From: Streptomyces yatensis
GTDB lineage: Bacteria > Actinomycetota > Actinomycetes > Streptomycetales > Streptomycetaceae
DNA: 64,000 bases
Reading direction: 5' to 3'
Assembly: GCF_018069625.1 (NCBI RefSeq)
Contig: NZ_CP072941.1
Location: 1,054,001 to 1,118,000, forward strand
The stretch's first letter is position 1. Each line of letters begins with the position of its first letter. The position numbers were made by a program, and so were the translations under genes. Under the pieces are notes generated by a model. It saw only the letters and a list, made by a program, of their open reading frames with translations, was not told the DNA's origin and did no database searches. Shown piece after piece: positions 1 through 64,000 of this stretch.

Positions 1-3000
1 CGATCCTCGGCCACCCCGACCTGAACGCGATTCCCCCGGCGCAGCCCTTCCAGGAGCTGGGCTTCGACTCCCTCACGGCGGTCGAGCTGCGTAATCAGCT
101 CGCCGCCACCACCGGCCTCCCGCTCGCCCCGGCGCTGGTCTTCGACCATCCGACGCCGAATGCGCTCGCCACCTACCTCAGCGCGGAACTGACGGGGCAG
201 AAGGCCGCCGTCACCACCCATACGGCGTCCGCGGCCGCCGACGACGAGCCGATCGCGATCGTCGGCATGGCCTGCCGCTACCCGGGTGGCGTGCGCTCAC
301 CGGAGGAGCTGTGGGAGCTGGTCGCCGCGGGCCGGGACGCCGTCGGGGAGATGCCCACCGACCGTGACTGGGATCTGAACACCCTCTTCGACCCCGACCC
401 CGAGCGTCTGGGCACCAGCTATGCGCGCGAGGGCGGCTTCCTCCACGACGCGGCCGGGTTCGACGCGGCGTTCTTCGGCATCAGCCCGCGCGAAGCGCTC
501 GCCATGGACCCCCAGCAGCGCCTGCTCCTGGAGACCGCCTGGGAGACCTTCGAGAACGCGGGCCTGGACCGGGACACGCTCGCCGGAAGCGTCACCGGTG
601 TCTTCGCGGGCGGCACCTATCAGGGCTACGGCGCCTCCGGAAGCTCCTCGGCGCGGGAGGTCGAGGGGTATCTGCTCGCGGGCGGTACGCCGAGTGTCAT
701 GTCCGGCCGGGTGGCGTACGCGTTCGGCCTCGAAGGGCCCGCGCTGACGGTGGACACGGCGTGTTCGTCCTCGCTGGTGGCGATGCATCTGGCGGCCCAG
801 GCGCTGCGGCAGGGCGAATGCACGATGGCGCTGGCGGGTGGCGTGACGGTGATGGCCACCCCGACCACCTTCATCGAGTTCTCCCGCCAGCGCGGTCTGG
901 CGGCCGACGGTCGGTGCAAGCCGTTCGCATCGGCGGCCGACGGCACCGGCTGGGGCGAGGGCGCCGGGCTTCTGCTGCTGGAGCGGCTGTCGGACGCGCG
1001 CCGCAACGGCCACCGGGTACTGGCCGTGATCCGGGGCTCCGCGGTCAACCAGGACGGCACCAGCAACGGCCTGACCGCGCCGAACGGGCCGTCACAGCAG
1101 CGGGTCATCGGACAGGCGCTCGCCAACGCGCGGCTGTCGCCGGCGGAGGTCGATGTGGTGGAGGGGCACGGCACCGGGACCACGCTCGGCGATCCGATCG
1201 AGGCGCAGGCGCTGCTGGCCACGTACGGCCAGGGCAGGCCGGAGGACCGGCCGCTGTGGCTCGGCTCCATCAAGTCCAACATCGGCCATACCCAGGCCGC
1301 CGCCGGAGTGGCCGGTGTCATCAAGATGGTGATGGCGATGCGGCATGGGACGCTGCCCGCCTCACTGCACATCGACGAACCGACCCAGCATGTCGACTGG
1401 AACGTGGGCGATGTCCAGCTGCTGACCGAGGCGGTGGAGTGGCCGGGGGACGAACATCCTCGCCGGGCGGGGGTCTCCTCTTTCGGCATCAGCGGGACCA
1501 ATGCGCATGTCATCGTGGAGCAGGCCCCCGAGGAGCCGCCGGCGGCGGTCGAAGCCCTCGAGGCGGAGCCGGTGGGCGGGCCGGTGCCGTGGGTGGTCTC
1601 GGCGCGCGGTACGGAGGCGCTACGAGGCCAGGCCCGGGCGCTGGCCACACGGGTGACCACCGACCCGGGGGTGACCGCTGCGGAGGTGGGCTGGTCCCTG
1701 CTGCGGTCCAGGACGCTCTTCGATCACCGGGCCGTGGTGATCGGCCAGGACCGTGAGGAGCTGGTGGCGGGTCTGGAGGCACTGGCCGCCGGAGAGCCGC
1801 ATCCGAGCCTGGTGCACCCCGGACAGGCCGCCGAGGCCGTCGGGCAGACCGTGTTCCTCTTCAGCGGGCAGGGCAGCCAGCGCCCCGGCATGGGCGCCGA
1901 ACTCTACGACCGCTTCCCCGTCTTCGCCGAAGCCTTCGACGAGGTCTGCGGTCTTCTCGATCCGCATCTCGAACATCCGCTACGGCAGGTGGCCTTCGCC
2001 ACTGATGCAGAGCGCGCCGGGCTGCTGGATCACACCACCTATGCTCAGGCAGGGCTGTTCGCCCTGCATATCGCCCTGGCACGGCTGCTCGACTCCGTCG
2101 GCGTACGCCCCGACACCGTCATCGGCCACTCCATCGGCGAAATCGCCGCCGCCCACATCGCCGGAGTCTTCGACCTCCCTGATGCCTGCCGTCTCGTCGC
2201 CGCCCGCGCCACCCTCATGGGAGGGCTTCCCACCGGCGGAGGCATGGCCACCATCGCCGCCACCCCCGACGAACTCGCCGAGAACCTGACCCAATTCGAC
2301 GGCCAAGTGGGCATCGCGGCCCTGAACACCCCCGGCACCACCGTCATCTCGGGACCCCTTGAGCTCGTCACCGATATCAGCGTCACCTGGGCGGCCAAGG
2401 GCCGTAAGACCAGGAGGCTGGCGGTCAGCCACGCCTTCCACTCCCCCCTGATGGACCCCATCCTCGAACCCTTCAAGGAAGCCATCAGCGGACTCACCTA
2501 CCACCCACCCACCATCCCCCTCATCAGCAACCTCACCGGACAACCAGCGGATGAACACATCACCACCCCCGACTACTGGGCCCAACACATCCGCCGGCCG
2601 GTCCACTTCCACCCCGCCATCACCCACACCGCACCCCACACCAGCACCTACCTCGAACTCGGCCCCGACCCCGTCCTCACCACCGCAACCCAGCACACCC
2701 TCCACCACACAACCGACCGGCCCTCCCCCCTCACCACCTCCACCCTCACCCGCAAACAACCCGACACCCAAGCCCTCACCCACACCCTCGCCCAACTCCA
2801 CACCAGCGGCACCACCATCGACTGGACCAGCTGGTACCCCGCCACCCCCACCACCCACACCATCGACCTCCCCACCTACGCCTTCCAACACCAGCACTAC
2901 TGGCTGTCGTCGGCCTCCTCCTCGGACCCGACGCCCACCGAGGCGGCTCTGGTCGACAAGGAGTTCTGGGAGGCGGTGGAGCGCGAGGATCTGGAAGCGC

Positions 3001-6000
3001 TTGCGGCGACCATCGACTCACCGGCGGACCAGCGGCCCATGCTGAGCGCCGTCCTCCCGACGCTGTCCGCCTGGCGGCGGCATCACCGGGAGCAGTCGGT
3101 CATCAATTCCTGGCGGTATCAGGCCACATGGAAGCGACTTTCCGCTTCCCCCGCGCCTCCGGCCCTCTCCGGCACCTGGCTGCTGATCGTCCCCGCCGGT
3201 CGGTCCGACCATCCTGCCGTGGCAACCGCCGAGCAGGCCCTGACCGCCCACGGCGCCACCCCGCTCCGCCATGTGCTCGACCCCCACACCGTCGATCGCG
3301 ACGCCTTGGCGGACCATCTCACCCGCCTCACCTCGGAGGCGGAACCCGCCGGAGTGCTGAGCCTGCTCGCCCTCGACGAGGAGCCGCACCCCGCATACGC
3401 CGCCGTACCCTCCGGGCTGAACGCGACCACCGTGCTCGTCCAAGCCCTCGGCGACGCTGAGATCCCTGCGCCACTGTGGTGCCTCACCCAGGGCGCGGTC
3501 GCCACCGGTCCCGGCGATCCGCTCCCGAGCCCGCTGCAGGCGCAGACATGGGGACTGGGCCGCGCGGCGGCCCTGGAACACCCTCGCCGCTGGGGTGGCC
3601 TGATCGACCTCCCGACCGTCATCGATCACCACACCTCCGACCGTCTGGCCGCCCTGCTCACCCCCGGTCGACCGGAGGACCAGACCGCCATCCGCGCCAC
3701 CGGCAGCTACGCCCGGCGCCTCCGTAGGGCCGGTGCACCCGCCACCGCGCCCAGGACCTGGCAGCCCACGGGTACCACGCTCATCACCGGTGGCACCGGG
3801 GGTCTCGGCGCCCATGTCGCCCGCTGGCTCGCCCGCCACGGCGCACCCCACCTCCACCTCATCAGCCGCTCCGGACCCGACGCCCCCGGCGCCACCCAAC
3901 TCACCCAAGAACTCACCACCCTGGGCACCACCGTCACCATCACCGCATGCGACGTCACCGACCGCACCGCACTCCAACACCTCCTCGACACCATCCCGGC
4001 CGAACACCCCCTCACCGCCGTCATCCACGCCGCCGGAACATCGGACACGGAGCTCATCGCCGATCTGGGCCCGGAGCGACTGCAGCATGTGCTCGGGCCC
4101 AAGGCCCTGGCCGCCGCTCATCTGCATGAGCTGACGCAGGAGCTCGACCTCAGCGCCTTTGTGCTCTTCTCGTCCGGCGCGGCCGCGTGGGGCGGCAGTC
4201 GGCAGGGCGCCTACGCCGCCGCGAACACCTATCTCGACGCCCTCGCCGAGCACCGCCGCGCCCGGGGACTCCCTGCCACCAGCCTCGCCTGGGGCCCCTG
4301 GGGCCATGCGGGCATGGCCGCCGACGAGACGGCGCTCGCGTTCTACGGCCGACGTGGACTGTCTCCGCTGAGCCCCGAACTGGCCGTGGCATCACTGCAG
4401 CACGCCCTGGACCACCGTGACACCACCATCACCGTCGCGGACATCGACTGGGAGAAGTTCCCGACGGCCTTCACCGCTCAGCGCCCCAGCCCGCTCCTCG
4501 ACGACCTGAACACGGCCGCCGAGAATCCCACCGAGCGAACCAGTGGCGCGTCCACAGGCCCGTCCGCCGGCACCTCGCTCCAGCAGCGGCTCTCCGCCGG
4601 CACCCCCGAGCAGCAGCACCAACTCCTGCTCGAACGGATCCAGACCCTCGCGGCCTCGATCCTGGGCCATTCCGGGCCGGACGCCATTCCGCCCGCCCAG
4701 CCGTTCCAGGAGCTCGGGTTCGACTCCCTGACCGCCGTGGAGCTGCGCAACCAACTCGCCACCGCCACCGGGATCGACCTCGCGCCCGCACTCGTCTTCG
4801 ACCACCCCACGCCCAACGCCCTCGCGACGTACCTGCGGGCCGAACTCACCGGCCAGCAGATCGCCGTCGCCGCTCACAGCCCCACCACGGCCGCCCAGGA
4901 CGAGCCGATCGCGATGGTCGGCATGGCCTGCCGCTACCCCGGCGACGCACACTCCCCGAAGGAGCTGTGGGACCTGGTCGTCGCCCACCGCGATGCCATC
5001 GCGGAGATGCCCACCGACCGCAACTGGGATCTGAACGTGCTCTACGACCCCGACCCCGACCGCGCGGGGACGAGCTACGTCCGGGAGGGCGGCTTCCTCT
5101 ATCAGGCGGCCGAGTTCGATCCCGGGTTCTTCGGCATCAGCCCACGCGAGGCGGTCGCCATGGATCCCCAGCAGCGCCTGCTCCTGGAGACTGCCTGGGA
5201 GACGTTCGAGAACGCGGGCCTGGACCGGGACACACTCGCGGGCAGCAACACGGGAGTGTTCGCGGGGGTGACGTCCCAGGACTATCTGTCCCTCACCGGC
5301 GATACGGCGAGCGACGTCGAAGGCTATGTCGCCACGGGCAACATCGCCAGCGTGGTGTCCGGCCGGGTGGCGTACTCGTTCGGCCTCGAAGGCCCCGCGG
5401 TGACGGTGGACACGGCCTGCTCATCCTCGCTGGTCGCGATGCATCTGGCGGCGCAGGCGCTGCGGCAGGGCGAATGCACGATGGCGCTGGCGGGCGGCGT
5501 GACGGTGATGGCCACCCCGGGCGCGTTCATCGAGTTCTCCCGCCAACGTGGTCTGGCGCCCGACGCGCGGTGCAAACCGTTCGCGGCCGCGGCGGACGGC
5601 ATGGTGTGGGGCGAGGGCGCCGGCCTCGTACTGCTGGAACGGCTGTCGGACGCGCGCCGCAACGGCCACCGAGTGCTGGCTGTCGTCCGTGGCTCGGCCG
5701 TCAACCAGGACGGCACCAGCAACGGCCTGACCGCACCGAACGGACCCTCGCAGCAGCGGGTGATCCGGCAGGCGCTCGCCAACGCCCGGCTGTCACCGTC
5801 CGAGGTGGACGCGGTGGAGGCACACGGTACGGGCACGACGCTCGGTGATCCGATCGAGGCGCAGGCGCTGCTGGCCACGTACGGGCAGGAGCGGGACGAG
5901 GGACGTCCACTGTGGCTCGGCTCCATCAAGTCCAACATCGGCCACACCCAGGCCGCCGCCGGAGTGGCCGGTGTCATCAAGATGGTGATGGCGATGCGCC

Positions 6001-9000
6001 ACGGGATGCTGCCCGCCACGCTGCACATCGACGAACCGACACCCCATGTCGACTGGAACGCCGGCGACCTGCGCCTGCTCACCGAACCCGTCCCGTGGCC
6101 CCAGGGCGAACGGCCCCGGCGGGCGGGGATCTCCTCCTTCGGCATCTCCGGTACGAACGCCCATCTCATCCTTGAACAGGCCCCCGAGCCGATCGAGCCC
6201 ACCCGGGTATCGCACGTCGCCGGTGTGGCCCCGTGGGTGATCTCCGCACAGAGCGAGGCGGCGCTGCGGGGCCAGGCGCGAGCCTTGACCGGGCACATCG
6301 TCGGCGCCCCCGAGGTGACACCGGCCGAGGTGGGCTGGTCCCTGCTCCGGACGAGGACGCTCTTCGACCACCGGGCCGTGGTCATCGGCCAGAACCGCGA
6401 CGAACTGGTGGCCGGGCTGGAAGCACTGGCCGCCGGAGAGCCGCATGCGGGCCTGGTGGGGCCCGGGGGGACGACTGGCGACGCCACCGGACAGACCGTG
6501 TTCCTCTTCAGCGGGCAGGGCAGCCAGCGCCCCGGCATGGGCGCCGAACTCTACGACCGCTTCCCCATCTTCGCCGAAGCCTTCGACGAGGTCTGCGCCC
6601 TGCTCGACCCCCACCTGGAACACCCCCTGCGGGATCTGGTCTTCAGCCACGACCCCGAAGACGCGGCGCTGCTGGATCACACCACCTACGCCCAAGCCGG
6701 ACTGTTCGCCCTGCATATCGCCCTGGCACGGCTGCTCGACTCCGTCGGCGTACGCCCCGACGCCGTCATCGGCCACTCCATCGGCGAGATCGCCGCCGCC
6801 CACATCGCCGGAGTCTTCGACCTCCCCGACGCCTGCCACCTCGTCGCCATCCGCGCCACCCTCATGGGAGGACTCCCCGAAGGCGGAGGCATGGCCACCA
6901 TCGCCGCCACCCCCGACGAACTCGCCGAGAACCTGACCCAATTCGACGGCCAAGTGGGCATCGCCGCCCTGAACACCCCCGGCAACACCGTCATCTCCGG
7001 CCCAATCGACCTCGTCACCGACATCAGCAACTCCTGGGCCGAACGCGGCCGCAAAACCCGCACCCTCACGGTCAGCCACGCCTTCCACTCTCCCCTGATG
7101 GACCCCATCCTCGAACCCTTCAAGGAAGCCATCAGCGGACTCACCTACCACCCACCCACCATCCCCCTCATCAGCAACCTCACCGGACAACCAGCCGACC
7201 ACCACATCACCACACCCGACTACTGGACCCAACACATCCGCCAACCCGTCCACTTCCACCCCGCCATCACCCACACCGCACCCCACACCAGCACCTACCT
7301 CGAACTCGGCCCCGACCCCGTCCTCACCACCGCAACCCAGCACACCCTCCACCACACAACCGACCGGCCCTCCCCCCTCACCACCTCCACCCTCACCCGC
7401 AAACAACCCGACACCCAAGCCCTCACCCACACCCTCGCCCAACTCCACACAAGCGGCACCACCATCGACTGGACCAGCTGGTACCCCGCCACCCCCACCA
7501 CCCACACCATCGACCTCCCCACCTACGCCTTCCAACACCAGCACTACTGGCTCGCCCCGCCCGTTCCGCGCGCCGACGCTCATGTCAACGGCCACGACCC
7601 GGCCGAGGCCAGGCTCTGGGACGCCATCGAAGAGCTCGATGTCGACGCCCTCACCAGCACACTCCAGCTGGAGAAGGACAGCCCCGGCGTCGACGCCCTG
7701 CTGCCCGCACTCCCCGTACTGTCGACCTGGCGGCGCCGGCACCGTGAACGGTCCACCATCGATTCCTGGCGCTATCGCGTCGCGTGGATGCAGCTGCCGG
7801 ACCCCGCCACCGCCACCGCTCCGACGCTCAGCGGAACCTGGCTGCTGCTCGTCCCCTCAGGGCTGGAGGAGCACCCGGCCGTCCGCGCCGCCGTCCAGGC
7901 GCTCGACACCCATGGCGCGGCCCATGAACTTCTGTCGGTCGATGGCGCGGACGTCCGGCGGGACGGCCTCGTCCCACTGGTCTCGCATCTGCCGGACGGC
8001 AGCACACCCGAGGGCATTCTGAGTCTGCTCGCGCTCGATCAGACGCCCCACCCGGACCACCCCGCCGTTCCCCTGGGGCTGGCCGCCACGGCCGCGCTTG
8101 TCCAGGCCCTCAGCGAAACGGCGCCGGTCGCGCCCCTGTGGTGTGTCACTCAGGGTGCGGTGGCCGCCGTTGCCGGCGATCCGCTCCCCCATCCGCACCA
8201 GGCCCAGATCTGGGGTATGGGCCGGGTCGCCGCGCTGGAACACCCGCATCTCTGGGGCGGTCTCATCGACCTCCCGGCCGTCGTCGACGCCCGCACACCC
8301 GCCCGTATCGCCGCCGTGCTGGTGCCCGGGCAGCCCGAGGACCAGGTGGCCATCCGCTCCACCGCCCTGGCCCGCCGGCTGGAGCGCGCCGCCTGCCCGG
8401 ACACCGCACCCACCGCGTGGCGCCCCACCGGGACGACCCTGATCACCGGCGGTACCGGGGGTCTCGGCGCCCATGTCGCCCGCTGGCTCGCCCGCCACGG
8501 CGCACCCCACCTCCACCTCATCAGCCGCTCCGGACCCGACGCCCCCGGCGCCACCCAACTCACCCAAGAACTCACCACCCTGGGCACCACCGTCACCATC
8601 ACCGCATGCGACGTCACCGACCGCACCGCACTCCAACACCTCCTCGACACCATCCCGGCCGAACACCCCCTCACCGCCGTCATCCACGCCGCCGGTATCG
8701 CGGAGAACACCCCGCTCGCCGAGCTGGATCTGCCGGGGATCGAGGCGGTGCTGCGGCCCAAGGCGCTGGCGGCCGCCCTCCTCCATGAACTCACCGAGGA
8801 CCTCGACCTCAGCGCGTTCGTGCTCTTCTCGTCCGGCGCGGCCGCGTGGGGCGGAAGCCGGCAGCCCTCCTACGCCGCCGCCAACGCCTATCTCGACGCC
8901 CTCGCCGAGCACCGCCGCGCCCGGGGACTCCCCGCCACCAGCCTCGCCTGGGCGCCGTGGAGCGATGCGGGCATGGCCGCCGACGAGGCCGTCGTCGAGT

Positions 9001-22330: not shown

Positions 22331-22764
22331 TTGATGAGCGCAGCCGGAAGAAGCTCATCCTCGAGCACAGCCGCCGGATGAACGCCGCGGATATCGACGG
22401 GCTTCTCGAACTCTACGCGGACGAGGTCACTTTCGAGGACCCCGTCGGATCGGGACGCAGGACCGGGCGGGACGCCCTTCGTGAGCATTTCGAGGAGCTG
22501 GCCGCGGCGGGGATCAGCGAGATTCCCGGTGAGCCGGTCGCGGGGCAGGACGGTGTGCATGTCCTGGTGCCGGTGACGGCCACCATGGACTATCTGCCCA
22601 AAGGCCCCGGATTCGCCGAGCGCGGCTGGCTGACGGCCCCGGATACCCCGGAGAGCTCCCGCATCACCTGGGACTACGTCCTGATGATGCGCGCGGGGGC
22701 CGGCGGTCTCATTCAGGAACTGCAGATGTTCTGGGGGAGGTCGGACATTGGCATCACCGGCTGA
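22327..22764 (+). CDS. MonB/LasB-type small SnoaL-fold epoxide hydrolase/cyclase
   Basis: 145 residues, GTG start overlapping the upstream PKS stop. Sequence pattern is of the SnoaL/ketosteroid-isomerase-like fold used by polyether epoxide hydrolases, which open polyepoxides regio-selectively to build cyclic ethers. Asp38 (in FEDP) and Glu65 fall at the same residue numbers as the catalytic acid pair I recall for Lsd19A of lasalocid biosynthesis. It is followed 35 nt later by a paralogue. GGGGG lies about 10 nt before the start. It probably corresponds to one of nigBI/nigBII; which one I cannot say. One of the pair could instead act as a pyran-forming cyclase like SalBIII on the C2/C3 enoate. 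Confidence 0.85.
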
Positions 22765-28674: not shown

Positions 28675-28699
28675 TCACGCCGACCGGCCCCAACCAGGC

Positions 28700-28704: not shown

Positions 28705-28709
28705 TACCG

Positions 28710-29117: not shown

Positions 29118-29134
29118 TCCGGCCCGCAGGGCAC

Positions 29135-31510: not shown

Positions 31511-31512
31511 CT

Positions 31513-48600: not shown

Positions 48601-48764
48601 TCGGGCGTGTTCACTCCGCCCGGGAACCGGCAGGCGATGCTCACGACCGCGATCGGCTCCTGGTATCGCTCCTCCACCTCGCGCAAACGCAGGCGCGTAT
48701 CGTGCAGATCCGCGGAGACGCGCTTGAGATACTCGACCAGTTTCTCTTCATTCACGTTCACCAT
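36606..48764 (-). CDS. Bimodular type I PKS: methylmalonyl DH-KR, then methylmalonyl DH-ER-KR
   Basis: 4052 residues, start at 48764, 41 nt after the upstream stop. An N-terminal docking coiled coil (1-32), two complete modules and a docking tail ending IDRELPS. Both ATs carry GHSQGE and YASH. The first module leaves an olefin, the second a saturated methyl-branched unit, matching C16/C17 and C14/C15 of nigericin. Codon 989 (45798-45800) is TTA, rare in Streptomyces and bldA-dependent. The first KS active site reads VETACSSS, Glu replacing the usual Asp. A hexanucleotide repeat encodes an Asn-Ala run in the second module. Several stretches are near-identical to the upstream gene. Confidence 0.96.
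39103..39150 (-). repeat. Hexanucleotide microsatellite in coding DNA (Asn-Ala run)
   Basis: Four exact GCGTTG units (39121-39144) with worn units on both sides encode an alternating Asn-Ala stretch after the LLDLDDD segment of the KR structural half. The repeat is in frame and, by position, probably in a surface loop. Confidence 0.85.
42553..43053 (-). repeat. KS repeat patch shared with 54924-55421
   Basis: About 500 bp of the second-module KS is nearly identical to the equivalent KS region of the upstream gene, with one 3-nt indel. The plus strand is C/A-rich even though the gene is on the minus strand. Confidence 0.75.
43292..43693 (-). repeat. ACP/linker repeat patch shared with 55666-56067
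   Basis: About 400 bp covering the first-module ACP and the preceding linker, nearly identical in the two bimodular genes and strongly C/A-skewed on the plus strand. Confidence 0.75.
46250..47230 (-). repeat. AT repeat patch (also near 40850-41800 and 58590-59560)
   Basis: The AT of this module shares long near-identical stretches with two other methylmalonyl ATs on the same strand. Borders are approximate. The plus strand is C/A-rich and G/T-poor in the core. Confidence 0.65.
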
Positions 48765-54800: not shown

Positions 54801-57800
54801 TTCGACGCACCGTCCTGGTTGACGGCGGAGCCGCGGATCACGGCCAGGACGTCGTGCCCGTTGCGCCGGGCGTCCGACAGCCGCTCCAGCAGCAGGACGC
54901 CCACGCCTTCGCTCCAGCCGGTGCCGTCGGCGGCGGCCGCGAAGGGCTTGCACCGGCCATCGGGGGCCAGACCACGCTGACGGGAGAAACCGGTGAACAC
55001 ATCCGGGGTGGCCATCACCGTCACCCCACCGGCCAACGCCAGCGTGCACTCCCCCTGCCGCAACGCCTGCGCCGCCAGATGCATCGCCACCAACGACGAC
55101 GAACACGCCGTATCCACCGTCACCGCAGGACCCTCAAAGCCCAGCGTGTACGCCACCCGGCCCGAGACCACGCTGCCCGAACTGGCCAGCATGGCGTAGC
55201 CTTCCAGCCGCGCGTCGCCGCCGCTGAGCCCGGCCGCGTAGTCGTGATACATCACGCCCGCGTACACCCCGGTCGGGCTGCCCTTCAACGACACCGGGTC
55301 GATCCCCGCCCGCTCCAGCACCTCCCACGACGCCTCCAACAGCAACCGCTGCTGCGGATCGGTGGCCAGCGCCTCCCGAGGATTGATCCCGAAGAACGCC
55401 GCGTCGAACGCATCGGCGTCGTAGAGGAACCCGCCTTTGCGCGCGTACGAGGTGCCGGGGTGGTCAGGATCGGGGTGGAAGAGCCCGTCCAGGTCCCAGC
55501 CTCGGCCGGTCGGAAACTCCCCGATGGCGTCACGGCCCGAGGCGACCAGATCCCAAAGCTCCTCCGGAGAGCTGACCCCGCCCGGGAATCGGCAGGTCAT
55601 CGCGACGATGGCGATCGGCTCATCGGCATCGGTCGCCGCCACGACGGGAGTGTGCGCACCGGAACCGGCGGTCTCGCCGGTCAGCCGGGTGCACAGATAC
55701 TCCGCCAGCACCCGAGGCGTCGGATAGTCGAACACCAACGTCGCCGGCAACCGCAACCCCGTCACCACCGACAACCGATTACGCAACTCCACCGCCGTCA
55801 ACGAATCAAAGCCCAACTCCTTGAACGCGGCATCCACCCGCACCTCACCAGCGGAAGCGAACCCCAACACCACCGCCACACCACCCCGCACCACCTCCGC
55901 CACCACATCCAAGCGAGCGGCATCCCCCAACCCCACCAACCGCCCAGCCAACCCCGAAACCCCTGCCTCACCAGCCGCCATCCGCCGCCCGGTACGACCG
56001 GCCACCAACCCCCGCAACACCGCCGGAAGATCCCCACCAGCCACCCCGGCCGGATCGAAGTCCACGGCGACACACAGCGGGCCACCCTGCGCACAGGCGG
56101 CGTCGAGCAGGCCCAGCGCCGTCTCGCTGGACATCGCGGCGATACCCGAGCGGGACATCCGGGCCCGGTCCGTCGCGACGAGCTTTCCGGTCATCTCACT
56201 GGAGTGGGCCCACAGGCCCCAGGCCACCGACAGCCCGGGAAGGCCATGGGCGTGACGGTGGGCGGCGAGGGCGTCGCAAAAGGCGTTCGCCGCCGCGTAG
56301 TTGGCCTGGCCCGGGCTGCCCATGACCCCGGCGGCGGACGAGAACATCGCGAACAGGGACAGCGGAAGGTCGGCGGTGGCGGTGTGAAGGTGCGCCGCGC
56401 CCGTGGCCTTGGCCGCCCACACCCGGGCCAGCCGTTCAGGTGTCTGCGAGGTGATCACCGCGTCGTCGAGCAGCCCCGTGGCATGGATGACACCGGTCAG
56501 CGGATGCTCGGCATCGACCCCCGCCACCAGCTCGGCCACCGCCGACGCGTCCGTGACGTCCACGGCGGCGATCCGCACCCGCGCGCCCAGCCCTTCCAGG
56601 CGGGTGGCCAGATCGCGGGCCCCCGGGGCGTCCGGCCCGCGACGGCTCACCAGGAGCAGATGGCCGACCTGCCAGGTGCGCACCAGGTGCTCGGCCACCA
56701 GGCCGCCCAGGGTGCCGGTGCCGCCCGTAACCAAGACGGTGCCGTCGGGATCGAGCGCCGCCGGGTGGTCCCGCTCCTCCGGACCGCTGTCGGCGGAGGC
56801 ACGGATGAGCCGTGGCACCCACGCCCGGCCATCCCGTACGGCCAACTGCGGCTCATCCAGGTCCATCGCCTGTGTGATGGCGTCCCGCAGCTGAAGGCCG
56901 AGCTCTCGATCCCCATCCGGTTCGAGGCCGAAATCCAGTTCGAGGGCGAGATCCGGTTCGAGATCGAGCAGAAGGAAGCGTCCCGGGTTCTCCGCCTGAG
57001 CGCTCCGCAGAAGACCCCACACCGCTGCGACAGCCACATTCGTATCGCCCTCGGCGTGGGTGACGGCGACCGCGCCACGCGTCACCACGACCAACCGCGC
57101 ATCGGCCAGCAGTGGCTCGGCCAGCCACTTCTGCACCAACTCCAGGACGCCTCGCGCCACCGCCAGACCAGCAGTCGCCATATCGGTCGCGGTGTCGGCG
57201 TCGACGTCCGGGCTCGGGAACTCGGCGAGAACCACGGCCGGGACCGGCTTCCCCTCATCGAGCCCCGCGAGAAGCGCCTCCAGATCCGGATGCGCCCCCT
57301 CGGCCGCCAGCACCGCCCAATCAGCGCGATCGGCCACCGCCCCATCGGCTCCTGTGGACTGCGGCAGTGGGGTCCAGTCCAGGACGAACAGACCATCCAC
57401 ACCACGTGCCGTCGCCGCCCCCCGCAACTGCTCTACGGACGCCGGCCGTGTCACCAGGGAGTCGACCGTCAGAACGGGGTCGCCCACGGCATCGGCCACC
57501 ACCAGCCGCAGCCCGCGCTCGCCCTCGGCGCCGCCCCGATGCGGGGTGAGCCGCACACGTACCGTGCTCGCTCCAGCGGCCCACAACGACACCCCGTTCC
57601 AGGCGAACGGCAGCAGCACCTGGCCGCCGCCCCGCTCCCGCTCGGATCCGGTGTCGAAGAGGAGGGCCGGATGCAGGGCCGCGTCGAGCAGCGCCGGGTG
57701 GATGCCGAAGCCGTCCGCGTCCCCGGCCGCCTCGGGCAGCGCCACCTCGGCCAGCAGGTCAGCGCCGTCCCGCCACACGGCGCGCAGCCCCTGAAAAGAC

Positions 57801-60800
57801 GGCCCATACGCATAGCCCGCCGCCTCGGAACGCTCGTAAAACCCCTCCAGATCCACCGGTTTCGCACTCGCCGGAGGCCATGTTCCACCCAGTCCCTCGG
57901 CCGGCCGGCCCGCGCCTTCCGATGCGGGGCTCAGCACCCCTTCGGCGTGGCACAGCCAGCCCGCATCGGTCCCCGCGTCGCCCTCGCCGTCCGGACGGGA
58001 GTAGATCCGCACATCGCGCCGCCCGTCCTCCGCCGCCGCGCCCACCACCACCTGGACACGCAGCCCGCCCGACTCCGGCAGCACCAATGGCACCTGGAGC
58101 GCCAGCTCCTCGATCCCACCGCAGCCGACCTCGTCGGCCGCCCGCAGTGCCCACTCCACCAGCGCAGCGCCCGGGGCCAGGACGGCGTTCGCCACGATGT
58201 GTTCGCCGAGCCAGTCGTCGCCGCCAACTGCCGAGATGCGCCCGGTGAGCAGGTGGGTGCTGCCATCGGCCAGCTCCACGGCGGCGCCGAGCAACGGATG
58301 GTCCGCTGCGACCAGGCCGAGCCTGCCGGGGTCGCCGACCGCGCCCGAGGCGTTCATCCAGTAACGCTGGTGCTGGAAGGCGTACGTGGGCAGATCGACC
58401 GTACGAGGCGTGGGATCGGCCGGGAACGCGGCCCTCCAGTCCACCTCGACCCCAGCGACGAACGCCTGCCCGAGTGAGTGCAGGAGCTGGGCCCGGCCGC
58501 CGTGATCGCGACGCAGCGTGGGCACGGCAACCGCGTCCACACCCACCTGCTCAAACGTCTCCTGCAGACCAAGAGTCAACACGGGATGACTACTGGCCTC
58601 GATGAACACCCGATGCCCATCCGCCACCAACGCCTCGACGGCATCAGCGAACCGCACCCGCTCCCGGAGATTCGCCACCCAGTAGCCGGTATCCAAGTCG
58701 GTGGTGGCCACACGACCACCGGTCACGGTCGAATAGAACGCCGTACCCGAACCCGACGTATCAAGCGGACGGACACCGGCCAAGACCTCGTTCAACTCAT
58801 CGCGGATCTCCTCCACCTGAGGACCGTGCGAGGCATAATCCACCTCGATCAGCCGCGCCCGCTCCCCCACCTCCTGGCACGCTGCGACGACAGCAGCCAC
58901 CTGCTCTGGCGGGCCCGAAACCACGGTGGAAGAGGGCCCGTTCACTGCGGCCACACCTACACCAGCGGCCTGAGCGCCCAGGTCGGAGAGCAACTGGCCC
59001 GCCTGCTCCTGGCCTACTCCAAGTGAGGCCATCGCGCCACCACCGGCCAGCTGTCGCAACGCCTTACTCCGCAGCGCCACCACCTTCGCGCCGTCCTCCA
59101 ACGACAACGCACCCGCCACCACCGCAGCCGCGATCTCACCCTGGCTATGACCCACCACCGCCGCAGGACGCACCCCATACCCCGCCCACACCCCAGCCAA
59201 CGACACCATCACCGCCCACAACACCGGCTGCACCACATCCACCCTGCTCAGGTCCGCCGCACCATCGACCCCCCGCAACACATCCGTCAACGACCACTCC
59301 GCATACGCCGAAAGCGCCCGCTCACACTCCCCCACCCGCGCCGCAAACACCGGCGACACCTCCAACAGCTCCGCACCCATCCCCATCCACTGCGAACCCT
59401 GACCCGGAAACACCAACACCGGACCCACATCACCCGTCAGCGCCGCCGCACCCGACATCACCACACCCGGATGCGACACACCCCCCGCCAACGCCTCCAC
59501 CCCCGCAACCAACTCACCACAGCCCTCACCCACCACCACCGCCCGATGCTCAAACACCGACCGCGTCATCACCAACGACCACCCCACGTCCACAGACGAC
59601 AACTCCGCCGTACCACCCACCCGCCCAGCCAGCGCCGCCGCCTGCCCCCGCAACGCCTCCACGCTCCGCCCCGACACCACCCACGGCACCACCCCACCCA
59701 CCTCGGAGGAATCCACCTCCGGCATAACCCCCTCAGGAGCCTGCTCCACAATCACATGCGCATTGGTGCCACTGATCCCGAACGCGGAGACCCCCGCCCG
59801 GCGCGGCTGCTCGTTTCTCGGCCACTCCGCCGGCTCCGTGAGCAGCCGCACCGCACCGCCGGACCAGTCCGCGTGCGGGGTCGGCTCATCGACGTGCAGC
59901 GTGGCGGGCAGCAGTTCATGGCGCAGCGCCATCACCATCTTGATCACACCGGCCACACCCGCCGCACCCTGCGTATGGCCGATGTTGGACTTCAGCGAGC
60001 CGAGCCACAGCGGCCTGCCCTCCGGCCGGTCCTGGCCGTACGCCGCGAGCAGCGCCTCGGCTTCGATCGGGTCGCCGAGCGTGGTGCCCGTGCCATGTGC
60101 CTCCACCGCGTCCACCTCGGCGGAGGAGAGCTGGGCGTTGATCAGCGCCTGGCGGATCACCCGCTGCTGGGAGGGACCATTGGGCGCGGTGAGCCCGTTG
60201 GACGCGCCGTCCTGGTTGATGGCCGAGCCCCGGATCACCGCGAGCACCTGATGTCCGTTGCGTTGTGCGTCGGAGAGCCGTTCCAGCAGCAGGAGCCCGA
60301 CGCCCTCCGAGAAGCCCGTGCCGTCGGCGGCGGCCGCGAAGGGCTTGCAGCGGCCGTCGGGGGCGAGTCCGCGCTGGCGGGAGAATTCCACGAAGGTGTT
60401 CGGCGTGGTCATCACGGTCACGCCACCGGCCAGGGCCAGGGTGCATTCGCCCTGCCGCAGCGCCTGGCAGGCGAGATGCATGGCGACCAGCGATGACGAG
60501 CAGGCGGTGTCCACCGTCACCGCGGGCCCTTCCAGGCCGAGGGTGAAGGCCACCCGGCCGGAGACGACGCTCAGGGTGTTTCCGGTGAGCAAATATCCTT
60601 CCGCGCTCTTTTCGATCTGCGGGGTGCCGAAGCCGAGAATTCCGGCGCCCGCGTAGACCCCGGTGGGGGTGCCCTTGAGCGAGGTGGGGTCGATTCCCGC
60701 GCGTTCGAGCAACTCCCAGGAGACTTCCAGCAGTTGACGCTGCTGGGGTTCGGCCGCCAGGGCCTCGCGCGGGCTGATGCCGAAGAAGGAGGCGTCGAAC

Positions 60801-61114
60801 CCGTCCGCCCGGTCCAGGAATCCGCCGTGGCGGACGTAGCTGGTGCCGGAGTGGTCGGGGTCCGGATGGTAGAGGGTCTCGGTACGCCAGCCACGGTTGG
60901 TGGGAAACTCCCCGATCGCGTCCCCGCGCGAGGCGACCAGCTCCCACAGGTCCTCGGGCGAGGCGATCCCGCCGGGGAACCGGCAGGCCATGCTCACGAT
61001 GGCCACCGGCTCCTGTGACCGCTCCTCCATCTCGCGAAGCCGCCGACGCGTCTGCCCCAGATCTGCCGTGACCTTCTTGAGGTACTGGCGGAGCTTCTCT
61101 TCGGTACCCGACAT
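48806..61114 (-). CDS. Bimodular type I PKS: methylmalonyl DH-KR, then malonyl DH-ER-KR
   Basis: 4102 residues from the ATG at 61112-61114, which has GGAGG 10 nt upstream. An upstream in-frame ATG at 61150 would overlap the previous gene and lacks such a site. The N-terminal docking helix ([13 protein letters not shown]...) is almost the same as that of the protein starting at 36589. Module one has a methylmalonyl AT and DH-KR; module two has a malonyl AT and DH-ER-KR. The pair yields a methyl-branched olefin followed by a plain CH2-CH2, matching C20/C21 and C18/C19 of nigericin. It contains an 18-bp in-frame minisatellite and a Thr-Asp run. The docking tail ends FIDNELGVS. The upstream stop is 16 nt before the start. 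Confidence 0.96.
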   Translation of the reverse strand: MSGTEEKLRQYLKKVTADLGQTRRRLREMEERSQEPVAIVSMACRFPGGIASPEDLWELVASRGDAIGEFPTNRGWRTETLYHPDPDHSGTSYVRHGGFLDRADGFDASFFGISPREALAAEPQQRQLLEVSWELLERAGIDPTSLKGTPTGVYAGAGILGFGTPQIEKSAEGYLLTGNTLSVVSGRVAFTLGLEGPAVTVDTACSSSLVAMHLACQALRQGECTLALAGGVTVMTTPNTFVEFSRQRGLAPDGRCKPFAAAADGTGFSEGVGLLLLERLSDAQRNGHQVLAVIRGSAINQDGASNGLTAPNGPSQQRVIRQALINAQLSSAEVDAVEAHGTGTTLGDPIEAEALLAAYGQDRPEGRPLWLGSLKSNIGHTQGAAGVAGVIKMVMALRHELLPATLHVDEPTPHADWSGGAVRLLTEPAEWPRNEQPRRAGVSAFGISGTNAHVIVEQAPEGVMPEVDSSEVGGVVPWVVSGRSVEALRGQAAALAGRVGGTAELSSVDVGWSLVMTRSVFEHRAVVVGEGCGELVAGVEALAGGVSHPGVVMSGAAALTGDVGPVLVFPGQGSQWMGMGAELLEVSPVFAARVGECERALSAYAEWSLTDVLRGVDGAADLSRVDVVQPVLWAVMVSLAGVWAGYGVRPAAVVGHSQGEIAAAVVAGALSLEDGAKVVALRSKALRQLAGGGAMASLGVGQEQAGQLLSDLGAQAAGVGVAAVNGPSSTVVSGPPEQVAAVVAACQEVGERARLIEVDYASHGPQVEEIRDELNEVLAGVRPLDTSGSGTAFYSTVTGGRVATTDLDTGYWVANLRERVRFADAVEALVADGHRVFIEASSHPVLTLGLQETFEQVGVDAVAVPTLRRDHGGRAQLLHSLGQAFVAGVEVDWRAAFPADPTPRTVDLPTYAFQHQRYWMNASGAVGDPGRLGLVAADHPLLGAAVELADGSTHLLTGRISAVGGDDWLGEHIVANAVLAPGAALVEWALRAADEVGCGGIEELALQVPLVLPESGGLRVQVVVGAAAEDGRRDVRIYSRPDGEGDAGTDAGWLCHAEGVLSPASEGAGRPAEGLGGTWPPASAKPVDLEGFYERSEAAGYAYGPSFQGLRAVWRDGADLLAEVALPEAAGDADGFGIHPALLDAALHPALLFDTGSERERGGGQVLLPFAWNGVSLWAAGASTVRVRLTPHRGGAEGERGLRLVVADAVGDPVLTVDSLVTRPASVEQLRGAATARGVDGLFVLDWTPLPQSTGADGAVADRADWAVLAAEGAHPDLEALLAGLDEGKPVPAVVLAEFPSPDVDADTATDMATAGLAVARGVLELVQKWLAEPLLADARLVVVTRGAVAVTHAEGDTNVAVAAVWGLLRSAQAENPGRFLLLDLEPDLALELDFGLEPDGDRELGLQLRDAITQAMDLDEPQLAVRDGRAWVPRLIRASADSGPEERDHPAALDPDGTVLVTGGTGTLGGLVAEHLVRTWQVGHLLLVSRRGPDAPGARDLATRLEGLGARVRIAAVDVTDASAVAELVAGVDAEHPLTGVIHATGLLDDAVITSQTPERLARVWAAKATGAAHLHTATADLPLSLFAMFSSAAGVMGSPGQANYAAANAFCDALAAHRHAHGLPGLSVAWGLWAHSSEMTGKLVATDRARMSRSGIAAMSSETALGLLDAACAQGGPLCVAVDFDPAGVAGGDLPAVLRGLVAGRTGRRMAAGEAGVSGLAGRLVGLGDAARLDVVAEVVRGGVAVVLGFASAGEVRVDAAFKELGFDSLTAVELRNRLSVVTGLRLPATLVFDYPTPRVLAEYLCTRLTGETAGSGAHTPVVAATDADEPIAIVAMTCRFPGGVSSPEELWDLVASGRDAIGEFPTGRGWDLDGLFHPDPDHPGTSYARKGGFLYDADAFDAAFFGINPREALATDPQQRLLLEASWEVLERAGIDPVSLKGSPTGVYAGVMYHDYAAGLSGGDARLEGYAMLASSGSVVSGRVAYTLGFEGPAVTVDTACSSSLVAMHLAAQALRQGECTLALAGGVTVMATPDVFTGFSRQRGLAPDGRCKPFAAAADGTGWSEGVGVLLLERLSDARRNGHDVLAVIRGSAVNQDGASNGLTAPNGPSQQRVIRQALTSAGLSPSDIDAVEAHGTGTTLGDPIEAQALLATYGQDRPAGQPLLLGSIKSNIGHAQAAAGIAGVIKMVQAMRHGTLPASLHIDEPTPHVDWDSGAVRLLTERVEWPNGERPRRAGVSSFGASGTNAHLLLEQAPEPGERATTEPVISPDMRAVPWTLSARSAEALRGQAAALAERMANSAETTAVDVGWSLATTRSLFEHRAVALGDDRAELLAAVAALASGEPHPGVALPVSGAATGKTVWLFSGQGSQREGMGAGLYERFPVFATAFDEVCGLLDPHLEHPLRDVVFHGVAERPGLLDHTTYAQAGLFALHIALARLLDSLGVHPDAVIGHSIGEIAAAHVAGVFDLPDACRLVAARATLMGGLPEGGGMVTIAATADELAEDLARYDGQVGIAALNTPGNTVVSGPVELVAGIGNVWAAKGRKTRTLTVSHAFHSPLMDPILEPFAQAIDGLTFHRPTLPVLSNLTGEPADEEMAAPGYWVRHIRQPVRFHPAIAHIAPDTGVFLELGPDPVLATATQHTLQHLTADEATTDTDTDTDTHEGGAGPGRPTPLVTATLSRKRPDVHALGHALAQLHTHGTDVDWAHWFPADPAPRTVDLPTYAFQRERYWLAQGGGVGDVGAAGLQRVEHAQLPAAVGLADGGLVLTGRVSAGGAGGWLAEHVMAGAVLAPGAALVEWALRAADEAGCGGVEELALQVPLVLPASGGLRVQVVVGVATEDGRRDVRVYSRPDRDVEPGAEPGWVCHAEGVLSPPSPQGPARGPADEPGGVWPPAGAELVRLDGFYERAAASGYAYGPSFRGLRTVWRDGADVFAEVALPEAAGEPERFGIHPALLDAALHPAFLLDRPGQEHEDGRVWLPFAWRGVSLWAGGATTVRVRLSPRELEAGGAEDERGLRVEVADALGGPVLTVDSLVMRSADVDQLRASAGPGPEVDGLFTLEWTPLPVPAPDTGAGHHEPDPADGGEWVVLGSQECGPIVPGAVHHPHLESLVSALDGDGPAPAVAIAYLPALGGPSGGDAGEDLASAGLAASQRVLELVRGWLAEPRLADARLVVVTRGAVTIDTTEAIDTSKAEGASEADGASEADGASEADGASEADGASEMDGASDRDGARAGGLDVAGAAVCGLVRSAQAENPGRFLLVDLDPDSEPLEESVRGAVVWAAHLDEPQVALRAGRLRVPRLMRAGGVSSGGVAALVGQPAWRLELTGAATVENVKPVPCPEVLEPLGPRQVRVAVHAAGINFRDALISLGMVPGQTGLGGEGAGVVLDVGPEVTGVAVGDRVMGVFDRAFGPTAVTDARMVAPVPAGWTSAQAASAPVAFLTAWYGLVELARLQAGETVLIHAATGGVGMAAVRIARHLGAEVYATASPGKHGVLEAMGIDEAHRASSRDLDFEEVFRGATGGRGVDVVLNSLAGPFVDASLRLLREGGRLMEMGKTDLRDPEHIAEEHPGVTYQVYDLITDAGPQHIGRMLGELGELFATEALRPLPVRTWPLSRTREALRHLGQAKHTGKLVLDVPAPVDPDGTVLITGGTGTLGALVAEHLVRVWGIGHLLLVSRRGPEAPGARDLADRLTALGARVRVVAADVTDAAAVADLVAGVDPGHPLTGVIHAAGVLDDAVVTAQTPERLARVWAAKATAAAHLHAATAHLRLGAFVLFSSAAGVMGSPGQANYAAANAFCDALAAHRQALGLPTVSVAWGLWAESSEMTGGLADADLARMSRSGVTAMTADHALRLLDAAAEHGGHQLIAADMNTRVLAAQPADALPATLRALAASGAGGAAARRTAAAADARPDDWAGRLAGLSATEQHRAVLQLVRGHVATVLGHSDAEAVQADTNFKELGFDSLTAVELRNRLAAATGLRLPAALVFDYPEAAVLADYLLERIAPAVGTATGRDGADPVLNELARLEATLIGLEMKDDDSGAVTARLESLLAKWKATRKPAEEEKTAAERLESASAAQVLDFIDNELGVS
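51393..51518 (-). repeat. 18-bp in-frame minisatellite (EADGAS repeat)
   Basis: Four exact 18-bp units (51429-51500) plus worn units at both ends encode a six-residue repeat, Glu-Ala-Asp-Gly-Ala-Ser, in the linker region between DH and ER. Length is a multiple of three throughout, so the frame is kept. Confidence 0.9.
53116..53140 (-). repeat. Short GTGTCG-type repeat (Thr-Asp run)
   Basis: Hexanucleotide units encode alternating Thr-Asp in the C-terminal part of the malonyl AT, a position without such a run in the malonyl ATs at 1842-2760 and 6490-7410. Confidence 0.8.
54924..55421 (-). repeat. KS repeat patch shared with 42553-43053
   Basis: Partner copy in the second module of this gene, offset 12371 then 12368 after a one-codon indel. 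Confidence 0.75.
55666..56067 (-). repeat. ACP/linker repeat patch shared with 43292-43693
   Basis: Partner copy covering ACP and linker, with the same plus-strand C/A skew. Confidence 0.75.
58590..59560 (-). repeat. AT repeat patch (third copy)
   Basis: Methylmalonyl AT region sharing long near-identical stretches with 46250-47230 and about 40850-41800. Its right part (about 59060-59560, continuing to 59760) is one of the most C/A-rich plus-strand stretches in the window. Confidence 0.65.
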
Positions 61115-61124
61115 CAGTTCCGCG

Positions 61125-61129
61125 CCTCC
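61125..61129 (-). promoter_or_regulatory. Ribosome binding site GGAGG
   Basis: GGAGG on the minus strand, 10 nt before the ATG at 61114. It decides that start over 61150. Confidence 0.7.
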
Positions 61130-61130
61130 A

Positions 61131-64000
61131 TCAGGGCAGTTCACGGTCAATGAGCTCGAACATCTCGTCGTCCGAGGCGGCTTCGAGGGCGTCGAAGTCG
61201 GTCGCGTCGGCGGGGGCGCCGGACCCGCCGCCGTTCCATGTCGCCAGGAGGGCGCCCAGCCGTTTGGCGATCCGCTGCCGGCCTTCGTCGTCCGTGACGA
61301 GGGTGGCCAAGGTGGTGTCCAGCCTGGCCAACTCGCCGAGGACCGGGTCGACGGCGTCCCGGCCCGGCGTGGGTCCGTCGCCGGGTGCCAGCCGTTCCAG
61401 CAGGTAGTCGGCGAGTGCGGCCGCTTCCGGGTAGTCGAAGACGAGGGCGGCGGGCAGCCGCAGTCCGGTGGCGGCGGCGAGCCGGTTGCGCAGTTCTACG
61501 GCGGTCAGCGAGTCGAAGCCCAGCTCCTTGAAGCTGGCCTCGGCCTGTACCGCGTCCACATCGGCGTGTCCGAGGACCGTGGCCGCGTGGCCCCGGACCA
61601 GGTTGAGCACGAGTCGGTGCCGTTCGGCCGTGGACAGGCCCGCGAGCCGGGCGCCCCAGTCGACCTCGCGGCCTTCCCCGGCCGCCGCCGCGGTCCGCCG
61701 CCCGGTGCCGCCACCGCCGCCCGTGGCGGCCAGGGCGCGCAGCGTGGCGGGCAGGCTGTCGGCGGGCAGCCCGGCGAGGGTGCGGGTATCCACGTGGGCG
61801 GCGACCAGATGGGCACCGCCGTGCTGGACGGCGGCGTCGAGCAGGGCCAGACCGTGCCGGGTGCTCAGGGCGGCGACACCGGTACGGGACATCCGGGCCA
61901 GATCCGCCTCGGCCAGGTGTCCGGTCATCCCGCTGGCGTCGGCCCACAGGCCCCAGGCGACCGATACGCCGGGCAGCCCTGCGGCCCGCCGATGGGCGGC
62001 GAGTGCGTCGCAAAAGGCGTTGGCCGCCGCGTAGTTGGCCTGTCCGGGGCTGCCGAGTGTGCCCGCGGCGGAGGAGAAGAGGACGAACATGCCGAGCCGC
62101 AGATGGGCCGTGGCCGTGTGCAGATGGGCCGCGGCCGTGGCCTTGGCGGTCCAGACGCGCGCCAGCCGTTCGGGGGTCTGTGAGGTCACCACCGCGTCGT
62201 CCAGCACACCGGTGGCGTGGATGACTCCGGTCAGCGGATGCTCGGGGTCGATGCCCGCCACCAGCTCCGCCACCGCCGTGGCGTCGGTGACATCCGCCGC
62301 CGTAAGGCGCACCCGCGCGCCCAGCTCCTCCAGTCGGGCGGCCAGGTCGCGGGCGCCCGGAGCGTCCGGCCCGCGCCTGCTCACCAGCAGCAGCCGGCCG
62401 ATCCCCCAGGTGCGGACGAGGTGTTCGGCGATGTGGGCACCCAGGGTGCCGGTGCCGCCCGTGATCAGTACGGTGCCGTCCAGATCGACCGCGGCGGGTA
62501 CGTCCAGCACCAGCTTGCCGATGTGCCTGGCCTGGCTCAGCTGGCGTAGCGCGTCCCGCGCTCGGCTGAGCGGCCAGGGCCGTACGGGGGCGGGCCGCAG
62601 CGCTCCGGCCGCGAACAGCTCGCTCACTTCCCGCAGCATCTCGCCGATGCGGTCCGGACCGGCGTCGGGGACCAGGTCGAAGGCGCGGTAGCGGACACCC
62701 GGATAGGCGGCCGCGAGGTGCTCCGGCTCGCGGATGTCGGTCTTGCCCATCTCGGAGAGCCGTCCGCCGTCGGCCAGCAGCCGCAGGGAGGCGTCGACGT
62801 ACGGCCCGGCGAGGCTGTTGAGCACCACGTCGACGCCACGTCCGCCGGTGGCCTCGCGGAACACCTCCTCGAAGTCCAGGTCGCGCGAGGAGGCTCGATG
62901 CGCCTGATCGATGCCCATCTCCTCGAGTACCCCGTGCTTGCCGGGGCCGGCCGTGGCATAGACCTCGGCGCCCAAGTGGCGGGCGATCTGCACGGCCGCC
63001 ATGCCGACACCGCCGGTCGCGGCGTGGATCAGCACCGTTTCGCCGCCCCGCAGCCCGGCCAGGTCCACCAGCCCGTACCAGGCGGTGAGGAACACCACCG
63101 GCACGGCGGCCGCCTGCCGGAAGCTCCAGCCGTCGGGGATCGGCACGACCATGCGCGCGTCCGCCACCGCCCAGGGGCCGAACGCGCCCTCGAACAGGCC
63201 CATGACCCGGTCGCCCACCGCGAGCCCGGTCACCTCCGGGCCGATGTCCACGACGATGCCCGCGCCCTCGCTGCCGCGGAACACCCCGCCTCCGGGGTAC
63301 ATCCCGACGACGATGAGCGCATCGCGGAAGTTCATGCCCGCCGCGTGCACCGCGATCCGGACCTCTCCCGGCCCCAGCGGCGCCAGCGCCTCGGGGCACG
63401 GCACGGGTGTCACATTGTCCACGGTGGACGCGCCCCGCACGGCGAGTCGCCACGCGGACTCTCCCACCGGGCCCACCAGGCCGCCGCTTCCGGGGCCGCC
63501 CGCGCGCATCAGACGGGGCGCCCACACCCTGCCGGAGCCCACCGCCACCTGTGGTTCGTCCAGGGCGACGGCCCTCAGCACACCGTCCAGCACCGTAGCG
63601 CCGATCTCGTCGGCGTCGGGCGCGCCGTGCGGATCGCGGTCCAGCAGGATGAACCGCTCCGGGTTCTCCGCCTGTGCGCTGCGCAGCAGTCCCCACACCG
63701 CGGCGCCGGCCGCGTCCACGGCCCCGGCCTCGGTGTCCTGCGCCACCGGGCCGCCGGCCGCTACCGCGCCGTGGGTCACCACCACCAAACGGCTCTCGGC
63801 CAGCCGGGGTTCGGCCAGCCAGCCCCGCAGCAGGTCCAGGGTTCGCCGCACGGCCGCCAGGGATTCGGCTTCGGTGGCCCCGATGTCCACGGCCGTCTCC
63901 GAGGCCGGTACGGCGGTCAGCGCCACCGAGGGCGCGGGTGTTCCGGCGTCGAGCGCCGCGACCAGCGACTCCAGGTCCGGGTGGCGGACCACGCCCGGCA
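61131..64000 (-). CDS. Modular type I PKS, 5'-truncated by the window: ER-KR-ACP of a fully reducing module
   Basis: The last roughly 956 codons of a longer gene. Visible parts are the KR structural half, ER (AATGGVGMAA NADPH motif; the stereo-linked residue is Tyr, codon 63297-63299), KR (GGTGTLG, LDD, catalytic Tyr in GQANY, B-type), ACP (LGFDSL) and a docking tail ending LIDRELP. KS, AT and DH lie right of the window, so the extender cannot be read. Tyr in the ER predicts a 2S methyl if the AT takes methylmalonyl, unlike the Val-type ERs elsewhere here. In the nigericin reading this is the C22 methyl / C23 methylene module. The next gene starts 16 nt after the stop. Confidence 0.94.
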   Translation of the reverse strand, partial: PGVVRHPDLESLVAALDAGTPAPSVALTAVPASETAVDIGATEAESLAAVRRTLDLLRGWLAEPRLAESRLVVVTHGAVAAGGPVAQDTEAGAVDAAGAAVWGLLRSAQAENPERFILLDRDPHGAPDADEIGATVLDGVLRAVALDEPQVAVGSGRVWAPRLMRAGGPGSGGLVGPVGESAWRLAVRGASTVDNVTPVPCPEALAPLGPGEVRIAVHAAGMNFRDALIVVGMYPGGGVFRGSEGAGIVVDIGPEVTGLAVGDRVMGLFEGAFGPWAVADARMVVPIPDGWSFRQAAAVPVVFLTAWYGLVDLAGLRGGETVLIHAATGGVGMAAVQIARHLGAEVYATAGPGKHGVLEEMGIDQAHRASSRDLDFEEVFREATGGRGVDVVLNSLAGPYVDASLRLLADGGRLSEMGKTDIREPEHLAAAYPGVRYRAFDLVPDAGPDRIGEMLREVSELFAAGALRPAPVRPWPLSRARDALRQLSQARHIGKLVLDVPAAVDLDGTVLITGGTGTLGAHIAEHLVRTWGIGRLLLVSRRGPDAPGARDLAARLEELGARVRLTAADVTDATAVAELVAGIDPEHPLTGVIHATGVLDDAVVTSQTPERLARVWTAKATAAAHLHTATAHLRLGMFVLFSSAAGTLGSPGQANYAAANAFCDALAAHRRAAGLPGVSVAWGLWADASGMTGHLAEADLARMSRTGVAALSTRHGLALLDAAVQHGGAHLVAAHVDTRTLAGLPADSLPATLRALAATGGGGGTGRRTAAAAGEGREVDWGARLAGLSTAERHRLVLNLVRGHAATVLGHADVDAVQAEASFKELGFDSLTAVELRNRLAAATGLRLPAALVFDYPEAAALADYLLERLAPGDGPTPGRDAVDPVLGELARLDTTLATLVTDDEGRQRIAKRLGALLATWNGGGSGAPADATDFDALEAASDDEMFELIDRELP

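Follow-up and report, generated by a model that had tools for sequence, protein, structure and literature searches.

The window analysed here is a 64,000-base stretch of DNA, bases 1,054,001–1,118,000 of the single-contig, 10,360,357-base genome of Streptomyces yatensis, and all positions below are counted from its first base. It carries giant modular polyketide synthase (PKS) genes on both strands and, between them, genes for polyether tailoring. Flanks of 36 kb on the left and 50 kb on the right were added to give one 150-kb stretch, on which genes were called by third-position GC; the genes for a discrete acyl carrier protein (ACPX) and a SARP regulator were found instead by ORF listing and reading. 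Domains were called with HMMs seeded with the domains of extension module M13 and rebuilt over ten PKS-type genes, and motifs were read by alignment. Gene numbering, such as nigAVII-like for g17, follows operon order and the gene names given in PMC9312159. Almost certainly, the 64-kb window is the central part of a gene cluster for nigericin biosynthesis that is complete in this genome.

The assembly line begins with a KSQ loading module, which 14 extension modules follow. The loading module and M1–M9 lie on the minus strand and M10–M14 on the plus strand. The modules and their genes are listed in chain order, with the nigericin carbons to which each is matched.

Right of 64000, minus strand: loading module, KSQ (DTAQSSS), malonyl-type AT and ACP; acetyl, C30/C29
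Right of 64000, minus strand: M1, methylmalonyl, DH present without KR or ER; C28 methyl, C29 keto
Right of 64000, minus strand: M2, methylmalonyl DH-ER-KR; C26 methyl, C27 CH2
Right of 64000, minus strand: M3, malonyl DH-KR; C24=C25
61131–64000, minus strand: 3′ end of the M3+M4 PKS gene, which runs to 73304
Across the window edge, minus strand: M4, methylmalonyl DH-ER-KR; C22 methyl, C23 CH2
62514–63473 (ER), 61935–62468 (KR) and 61410–61610 (ACP), minus strand: M4 domains inside the window
48806–61150, minus strand: M5+M6 PKS gene
55703–61012, minus strand: M5, methylmalonyl DH-KR; C20=C21 with methyl
49091–55621, minus strand: M6, malonyl DH-ER-KR; C18/C19 CH2
36606–48764, minus strand: M7+M8 PKS gene
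43329–48659, minus strand: M7, methylmalonyl DH-KR; C16=C17 with methyl
36888–43253, minus strand: M8, methylmalonyl DH-ER-KR; C14 methyl, C15 CH2
31598–36589, minus strand: M9 PKS gene (module span 31862–36487), methylmalonyl, KR0; C12 methyl, C13 keto for the spiroketal
1–9743, plus strand: nigAVII-like PKS gene g17 (M10–M12), starting at −4650
Left of base 1, ACP at −30 to 170, plus strand: M10, KS-AT(HAFH, malonyl)-KR(active, no LDD)-ACP; C11 oxygen
246–4826, plus strand: M11, malonyl KR; C9 oxygen
4902–9476, plus strand: M12, malonyl KR; C7 oxygen
9791–16390, plus strand: M13 PKS gene, KS-AT(methylmalonyl)-DH-ER-KR-ACP; C4 methyl, C5 CH2
16517–22330, plus strand: M14 PKS gene, KS-AT(methylmalonyl)-DH-KR-ACP, the last extension module; C2 methyl, C3 pyran oxygen/ring carbon

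The KS, methylmalonyl AT and DH of M4 are located right of 64000. The KR of M9 retains neither TGGTGxLG nor its catalytic lysine, and YAAAT stands in place of YAAAN in the motif alignment. The M14 gene continues beyond its ACP as a docking tail, with no thioesterase-sized stretch. M1 lacks a KR, so its retained DH should have no substrate; nevertheless, the DH of this module (80110–87531) keeps an intact HxxxGxxxxP motif, identical in the corresponding clusters of two other Streptomyces genomes (G055 and G165, described below). Just upstream of the M10 gene, at −5337 to −4690, lies a gene for a 215-residue protein with a membrane-anchor-like start, 96–97% conserved in G055 and G165 and without a Pfam or NCBIfam match.

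We compared the extender and reduction motifs with the C30–C1 chain of nigericin, using its structure, numbering and configurations. Agreement extends to 14 of 14 modules, with the observed list (domain and motif calls) and the expected list (nigericin structure) both entered by hand. Given its composition, the set of 14 module types could be arranged in 50,450,400 distinct orders, and the nine complete modules within the window in 15,120; these are counts of orders, not probabilities. The carbons sum to 40 (2 from the starter, 28 from the extenders, 9 from methyl branches and 1 from an O-methyl), which fits the published formula of C40H68O11 given in both PMC9045263 and PMC9058090. Published ions of nigericin are [M+NH4]+ 742.51 and [M−H]− 723.47.

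An earlier note, made from the letters of the window alone, had proposed this correspondence. All the modules that it named are present in the order and on the strands claimed, and the agreement it saw in extender use and reduction extends into the flanks. It had also placed one malonyl module with an active KR just left of base 1, and exactly one such module, M10 with its HAFH AT, is found in g17. The olefin at C24/C25 that it expected right of 64000 is accounted for by the malonyl DH-KR module M3. From module colinearity it follows that the growing chain jumps from the minus-strand genes to the plus-strand genes, from M9 to M10; a comparison of docking tails and their charges gave no decisive pairing of these two modules.

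Stereochemical motifs were read for the reductive domains. The KRs of M10, M11 and M12 lack LDD, and those of the olefin-forming modules M3, M5, M7 and M14 contain it. A KR without LDD is of the A type. Converted by hand, the KR types of M10–M12 give C11 R, C9 R and C7 R, the same as in the systematic name of nigericin. At the diagnostic ER position, M2 and M4 have Tyr, and M6, M8 and M13 have Val. By the Tyr/Val rule, M2, M4 and M8 fit the configurations C26 S, C22 S and C14 R. M13 does not: its Val is mismatched with the Tyr that the simple rule would call for at C4 S. The same Val is found in the G055 and G165 clusters, so it does not set the yatensis cluster apart from the others and probably shows where the simple rule falls short, rather than pointing to a different product.

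Between the two arms of the assembly line, and beyond its loading end, lie the genes expected to act on the finished chain and to control the cluster.

22327–22764, plus strand: MonBI-like epoxide-opening cyclase (SnoaL_2, 8.7e-12)
22800–23267, plus strand: MonBII-like epoxide-opening cyclase (SnoaL_2, 1.7e-13)
23303–24733, plus strand: NigCI-like flavin epoxidase of the MonCI family (PDB matches: MonCI, 646 bits; LasC/Lsd18, 473–475 bits)
24730–28674, plus strand: KSX, with KS at 24829–26106, AT remnant at 26443–26745, KR remnant at 27925–28428 and no ACP
28710–29117, plus strand: ACPX, discrete acyl carrier protein of 135 residues (PP-binding, 2.1e-10, in the frame 28299–29117)
29212–30471, minus strand: NigD-like P450 (Pfam p450), proposed C30 hydroxylase converting grisorixin to nigericin
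30644–31510, plus strand: NigCII-like alpha/beta hydrolase (Abhydrolase_1, 9.2e-29), proposed release enzyme acting on ACPX
87729–88586, outside the window: methyltransferase
89310–90092, outside the window: NigR-like SARP regulator (NCBIfam SARP models below cut-off)

No NCBIfam model reached its cut-off with the epoxidase, either of the MonB-like proteins, the P450, the hydrolase, ACPX, the methyltransferase or the SARP. For both cyclases the best PDB match is a MonBI–MonBII fusion, the first half for the protein at 22327–22764 (3.3e-65; LasB, 1.6e-51; MonBI, 2.8e-45) and the second half for its neighbour at 22800–23267 (1.8e-68). The epoxidase is 98–99% identical to proteins named S. violaceusniger and 95% identical to those of Streptomyces sp. 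DSM 41534 and sp. 110. The closest PDB relatives of the P450 are CYP125MRCA (4.6e-109) and CYP124, a methyl-branched lipid omega-hydroxylase (2.4e-106), a relationship that fits hydroxylation of the terminal C30 methyl group. A reference title in PMC9045263 reports that grisorixin accumulates in a nigericin strain under a P450 inhibitor. The solved structures related to the hydrolase are, among the matches listed, generic hydrolases only, and its role in release is proposed by analogy with MonCII.

We searched for the epoxidase in a sample of 392 genomes from the genus Streptomyces, at E ≤ 1e-120. Matches occur in 28 genomes (30 matches), eight of which, the yatensis genome included, carry one at 92–100% identity over the full length. 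Twenty stretches holding 22 of the 30 matches were taken for comparison. The string BI–BII–epoxidase–KSX–ACPX–P450–hydrolase is present in all seven stretches from other genomes with 92–98% epoxidase identity. Two of these genomes, G055 and G165, were read over 100 kb each, and all 18 core genes are found in both, in identical order and strand (protein identity 91.2–99.6% in G055 and 90.7–99.2% in G165). Protein alignments are full length or nearly so, as with the hydrolase (98.2% identity over 283–284 of 288 residues in both) and the methyltransferase (276 of 285). In these two clusters g17 is 92.5% and 91.5% identical over its full length, ACPX 97.8% and 98.5% and the P450 98.6% and 98.8%. 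The DNA pieces kept in the alignments are 92.8–96.2% identical; they leave out 1.3 kb in G055 and 2.7 kb in G165, where the PKS ends with its loading module. AT, KS, KR and ER motifs are unchanged in the modules compared, whereas the DH motifs of M2, M5 and M7 (3 of 10) show changes of one to three residues.

Genome G055 is probably, we presume, that of S. violaceusniger Tu 4113, the strain to which PMC9045263 assigns the nigericin entry of MIBiG (BGC0000114). Against the G055 cluster, with which all 18 core genes and the specificity motifs are shared, the yatensis cluster shows 4.6–6.7% DNA divergence in aligned pieces, in addition to the unaligned segment of the loading-module gene and the small DH motif differences noted above. 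Together with the 14-module match, the synteny of the 18 core genes in two genomes supports a nigericin-type product, as the earlier note had predicted. Among 72,556 plasmid records compared with positions 23303–31000, 46 matched, one of them in the 90–95% identity band; none covers 80% of this segment, and the matches listed cover at most 20% of it at about 70–73% identity.

Some of the other stretches have features of their own. L129 and L130, at 81–82% epoxidase identity, carry a NigB–NigC–KSX–ACPX block and possibly specify a different product; no NigCII-like hydrolase was hit within the 20 kb read there. L131 (381–5479) and L132 (8399–13463) each contain two close MonCI-like epoxidase genes with MonB-like ORFs between them. 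In L136 (9043–10500) a nigericin-like cluster has its epoxidase split over two frames and a short KSX KS hit, and may be broken or mis-sequenced.

KSX has the make-up of a decayed module. Its KS is intact, with the catalytic Cys and both His motifs. The AT is truncated and of malonyl-type appearance, with GCGVG at the place of GHSxG, and the KR remnant lacks YAAAN. We defined a KSX-like ORF as one of more than 900 residues with a KS, no ACP hit and no AT of at least 150 residues. Such an ORF is present in 11 of the 20 epoxidase stretches and absent from 8; L131 may hold a further one, in an ORF that the end of the contig truncates. KS-AT°-KR° remnants are found in the seven near-identical clusters and in L129, L130 and L136, and the KSX-like ORF of L132 gives no KR hit. 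In a tree of 44 KS domains, the L131 ORF groups with the 11 KSX entries (ten from the stretches and the window's own, L136 being excluded as below the length limit) in a single clade of 12 members (support 1.0). Among the nigericin extension modules, the KS of M10 comes closest, but only narrowly (0.57, versus 0.59 for M6). In a tree of 61 KR domains, the 11 KSX remnants likewise group together (support 1.0); their branch is long, and no module stands out as the closest. A scan of the genome contigs with KSX gave 578 matches, of which the best 80, at 78 loci, comprise two loci at 90% (L014 and L019) and others at 49–64% that are presumably ordinary PKS modules.

These features raise the possibility, which we hold only tentatively and consider rather doubtful, that KSX is a decayed extension module with a single origin from an M10-like malonyl-KR module, whose inert AT°/KR° body was kept as a scaffold for handing the chain over to ACPX and the epoxidase. 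The link to M10 is weak, the KR remnant points to no module, the L132 ORF has no KR remnant and 8 of the 20 stretches have no KSX, all of which argue against this reading. A full-text literature search found no paper joining KSX, ACPX and polyether, and a looser search gave no KSX among the matches listed.

The tailoring genes resemble those of other polyether systems. A MonCI-like epoxidase and two MonB-like cyclases are shared, by sequence, with the monensin cluster, and a discrete ACP with a KSX-type protein corresponds to the KSX/ACPX logic of monensin. The monensin line, however, has 12 extension modules, compared with 14 in yatensis, where the KR0 of M9 would leave the C13 keto group for the spiroketal. 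The lasalocid enzymes LasC/Lsd18 and LasB belong to the same families for epoxidation and epoxide opening, but they score below the Mon proteins for the epoxidase and the fused MonB pair, and lasalocid has one fused LasB where yatensis has two separate genes. Assignment to a monensin-type or other polyether was considered and rejected.

The nigericin cluster of Streptomyces sp. DSM4137 was reportedly described by Harvey et al. in 2007. That of S. malaysiensis F913 (ON664936) was compared by its published description. A published figure legend gives it 20 ORFs in 97.9 kb. In yatensis, twenty genes (g16 to g33 plus ACPX and SARP) span 97.7 kb, from base 1,048,663 to 1,146,346 of the genome, with borders that were picked knowing the F913 figure. 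According to PMC9312159, a nigericin cluster was cloned earlier and probed by gene disruption, and cluster content and architecture are described as highly conserved across Streptomyces in PMC9045263.

From the genes present, the order of the modules, their motifs for extender choice and reduction, and the orthology observed here, a pathway can be proposed. The KSQ loading module would decarboxylate malonyl to an acetyl starter (C30/C29). M1–M9, read right to left on the minus strand, and then M10–M14 on the plus strand would build a linear triene that has its double bonds at C24, C20 and C16, a ketone at C13 and methyl groups at C28, C26, C22, C20, C16, C14, C12, C4 and C2. Once complete, the chain would be passed by KSX from the last ACP on to ACPX. 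The MonCI-like epoxidase would form a triepoxide, which the two MonB-like proteins would open in a cascade to give the ether rings. The hydrolase would then free the acid, the P450 hydroxylate C30 and the methyltransferase methylate O11, with the NigR-like SARP activating the cluster. By analogy with work on nigericin and monensin, we infer what KSX, ACPX, the hydrolase and the methyltransferase do, in which order the late steps run and that the yatensis strain makes the compound.

A single PKS would serve nigericin, grisorixin and abierixin alike, and PMC9045263 describes abierixin and grisorixin as coproduced with nigericin. The main product might on these grounds be a close congener, e.g. 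grisorixin, which lacks the C30 hydroxyl, or abierixin. We regard this as unlikely, since the gene for the CYP124/125-type P450 is open and 98.6–98.8% identical to those of the other two clusters, and open reading frames are also present for the epoxidase, the MonB-like proteins, KSX and ACPX. The related lines that exist in L129 and L130, which share the NigB–NigC–KSX–ACPX block at 81–82% epoxidase identity, suggest that the product could be another polyether of about this length, a novel analogue of nigericin altered in its methyl groups or oxygens. This is very improbable: the AT, KS, KR and ER motifs equal those of the two near-identical clusters and 14 of 14 modules fit nigericin. A broken cluster was rejected, as the yatensis PKS genes are open frames and those of G055 and G165 give full-length matches without stops.

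The cluster might instead be intact and silent in the yatensis strain. Its SARP gene contains a single TTA, at codon 22, making bldA dependence likely; NigR of F913 has a TTA at the same codon and its bldA dependence has been suggested, according to PMC9312159. F913 nonetheless makes nigericin, with nigR needed for transcription of the cluster (same paper), and the yatensis SARP is 99.2–99.6% identical to its counterparts in the two other clusters. We give silence a small chance, slightly above that of a congener as the main product. A complete nigericin cluster, with nigericin as its predicted product, is the reading that we retain.

Nigericin is a K+/H+ ionophore in wide use. Its biosynthetic system is already known and the present locus adds little that is new: the yatensis cluster is one more standard nigericin cluster. 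What it illustrates is that raw sequence suffices to read correctly what a giant assembly line makes, including blind predictions on unseen flanks.
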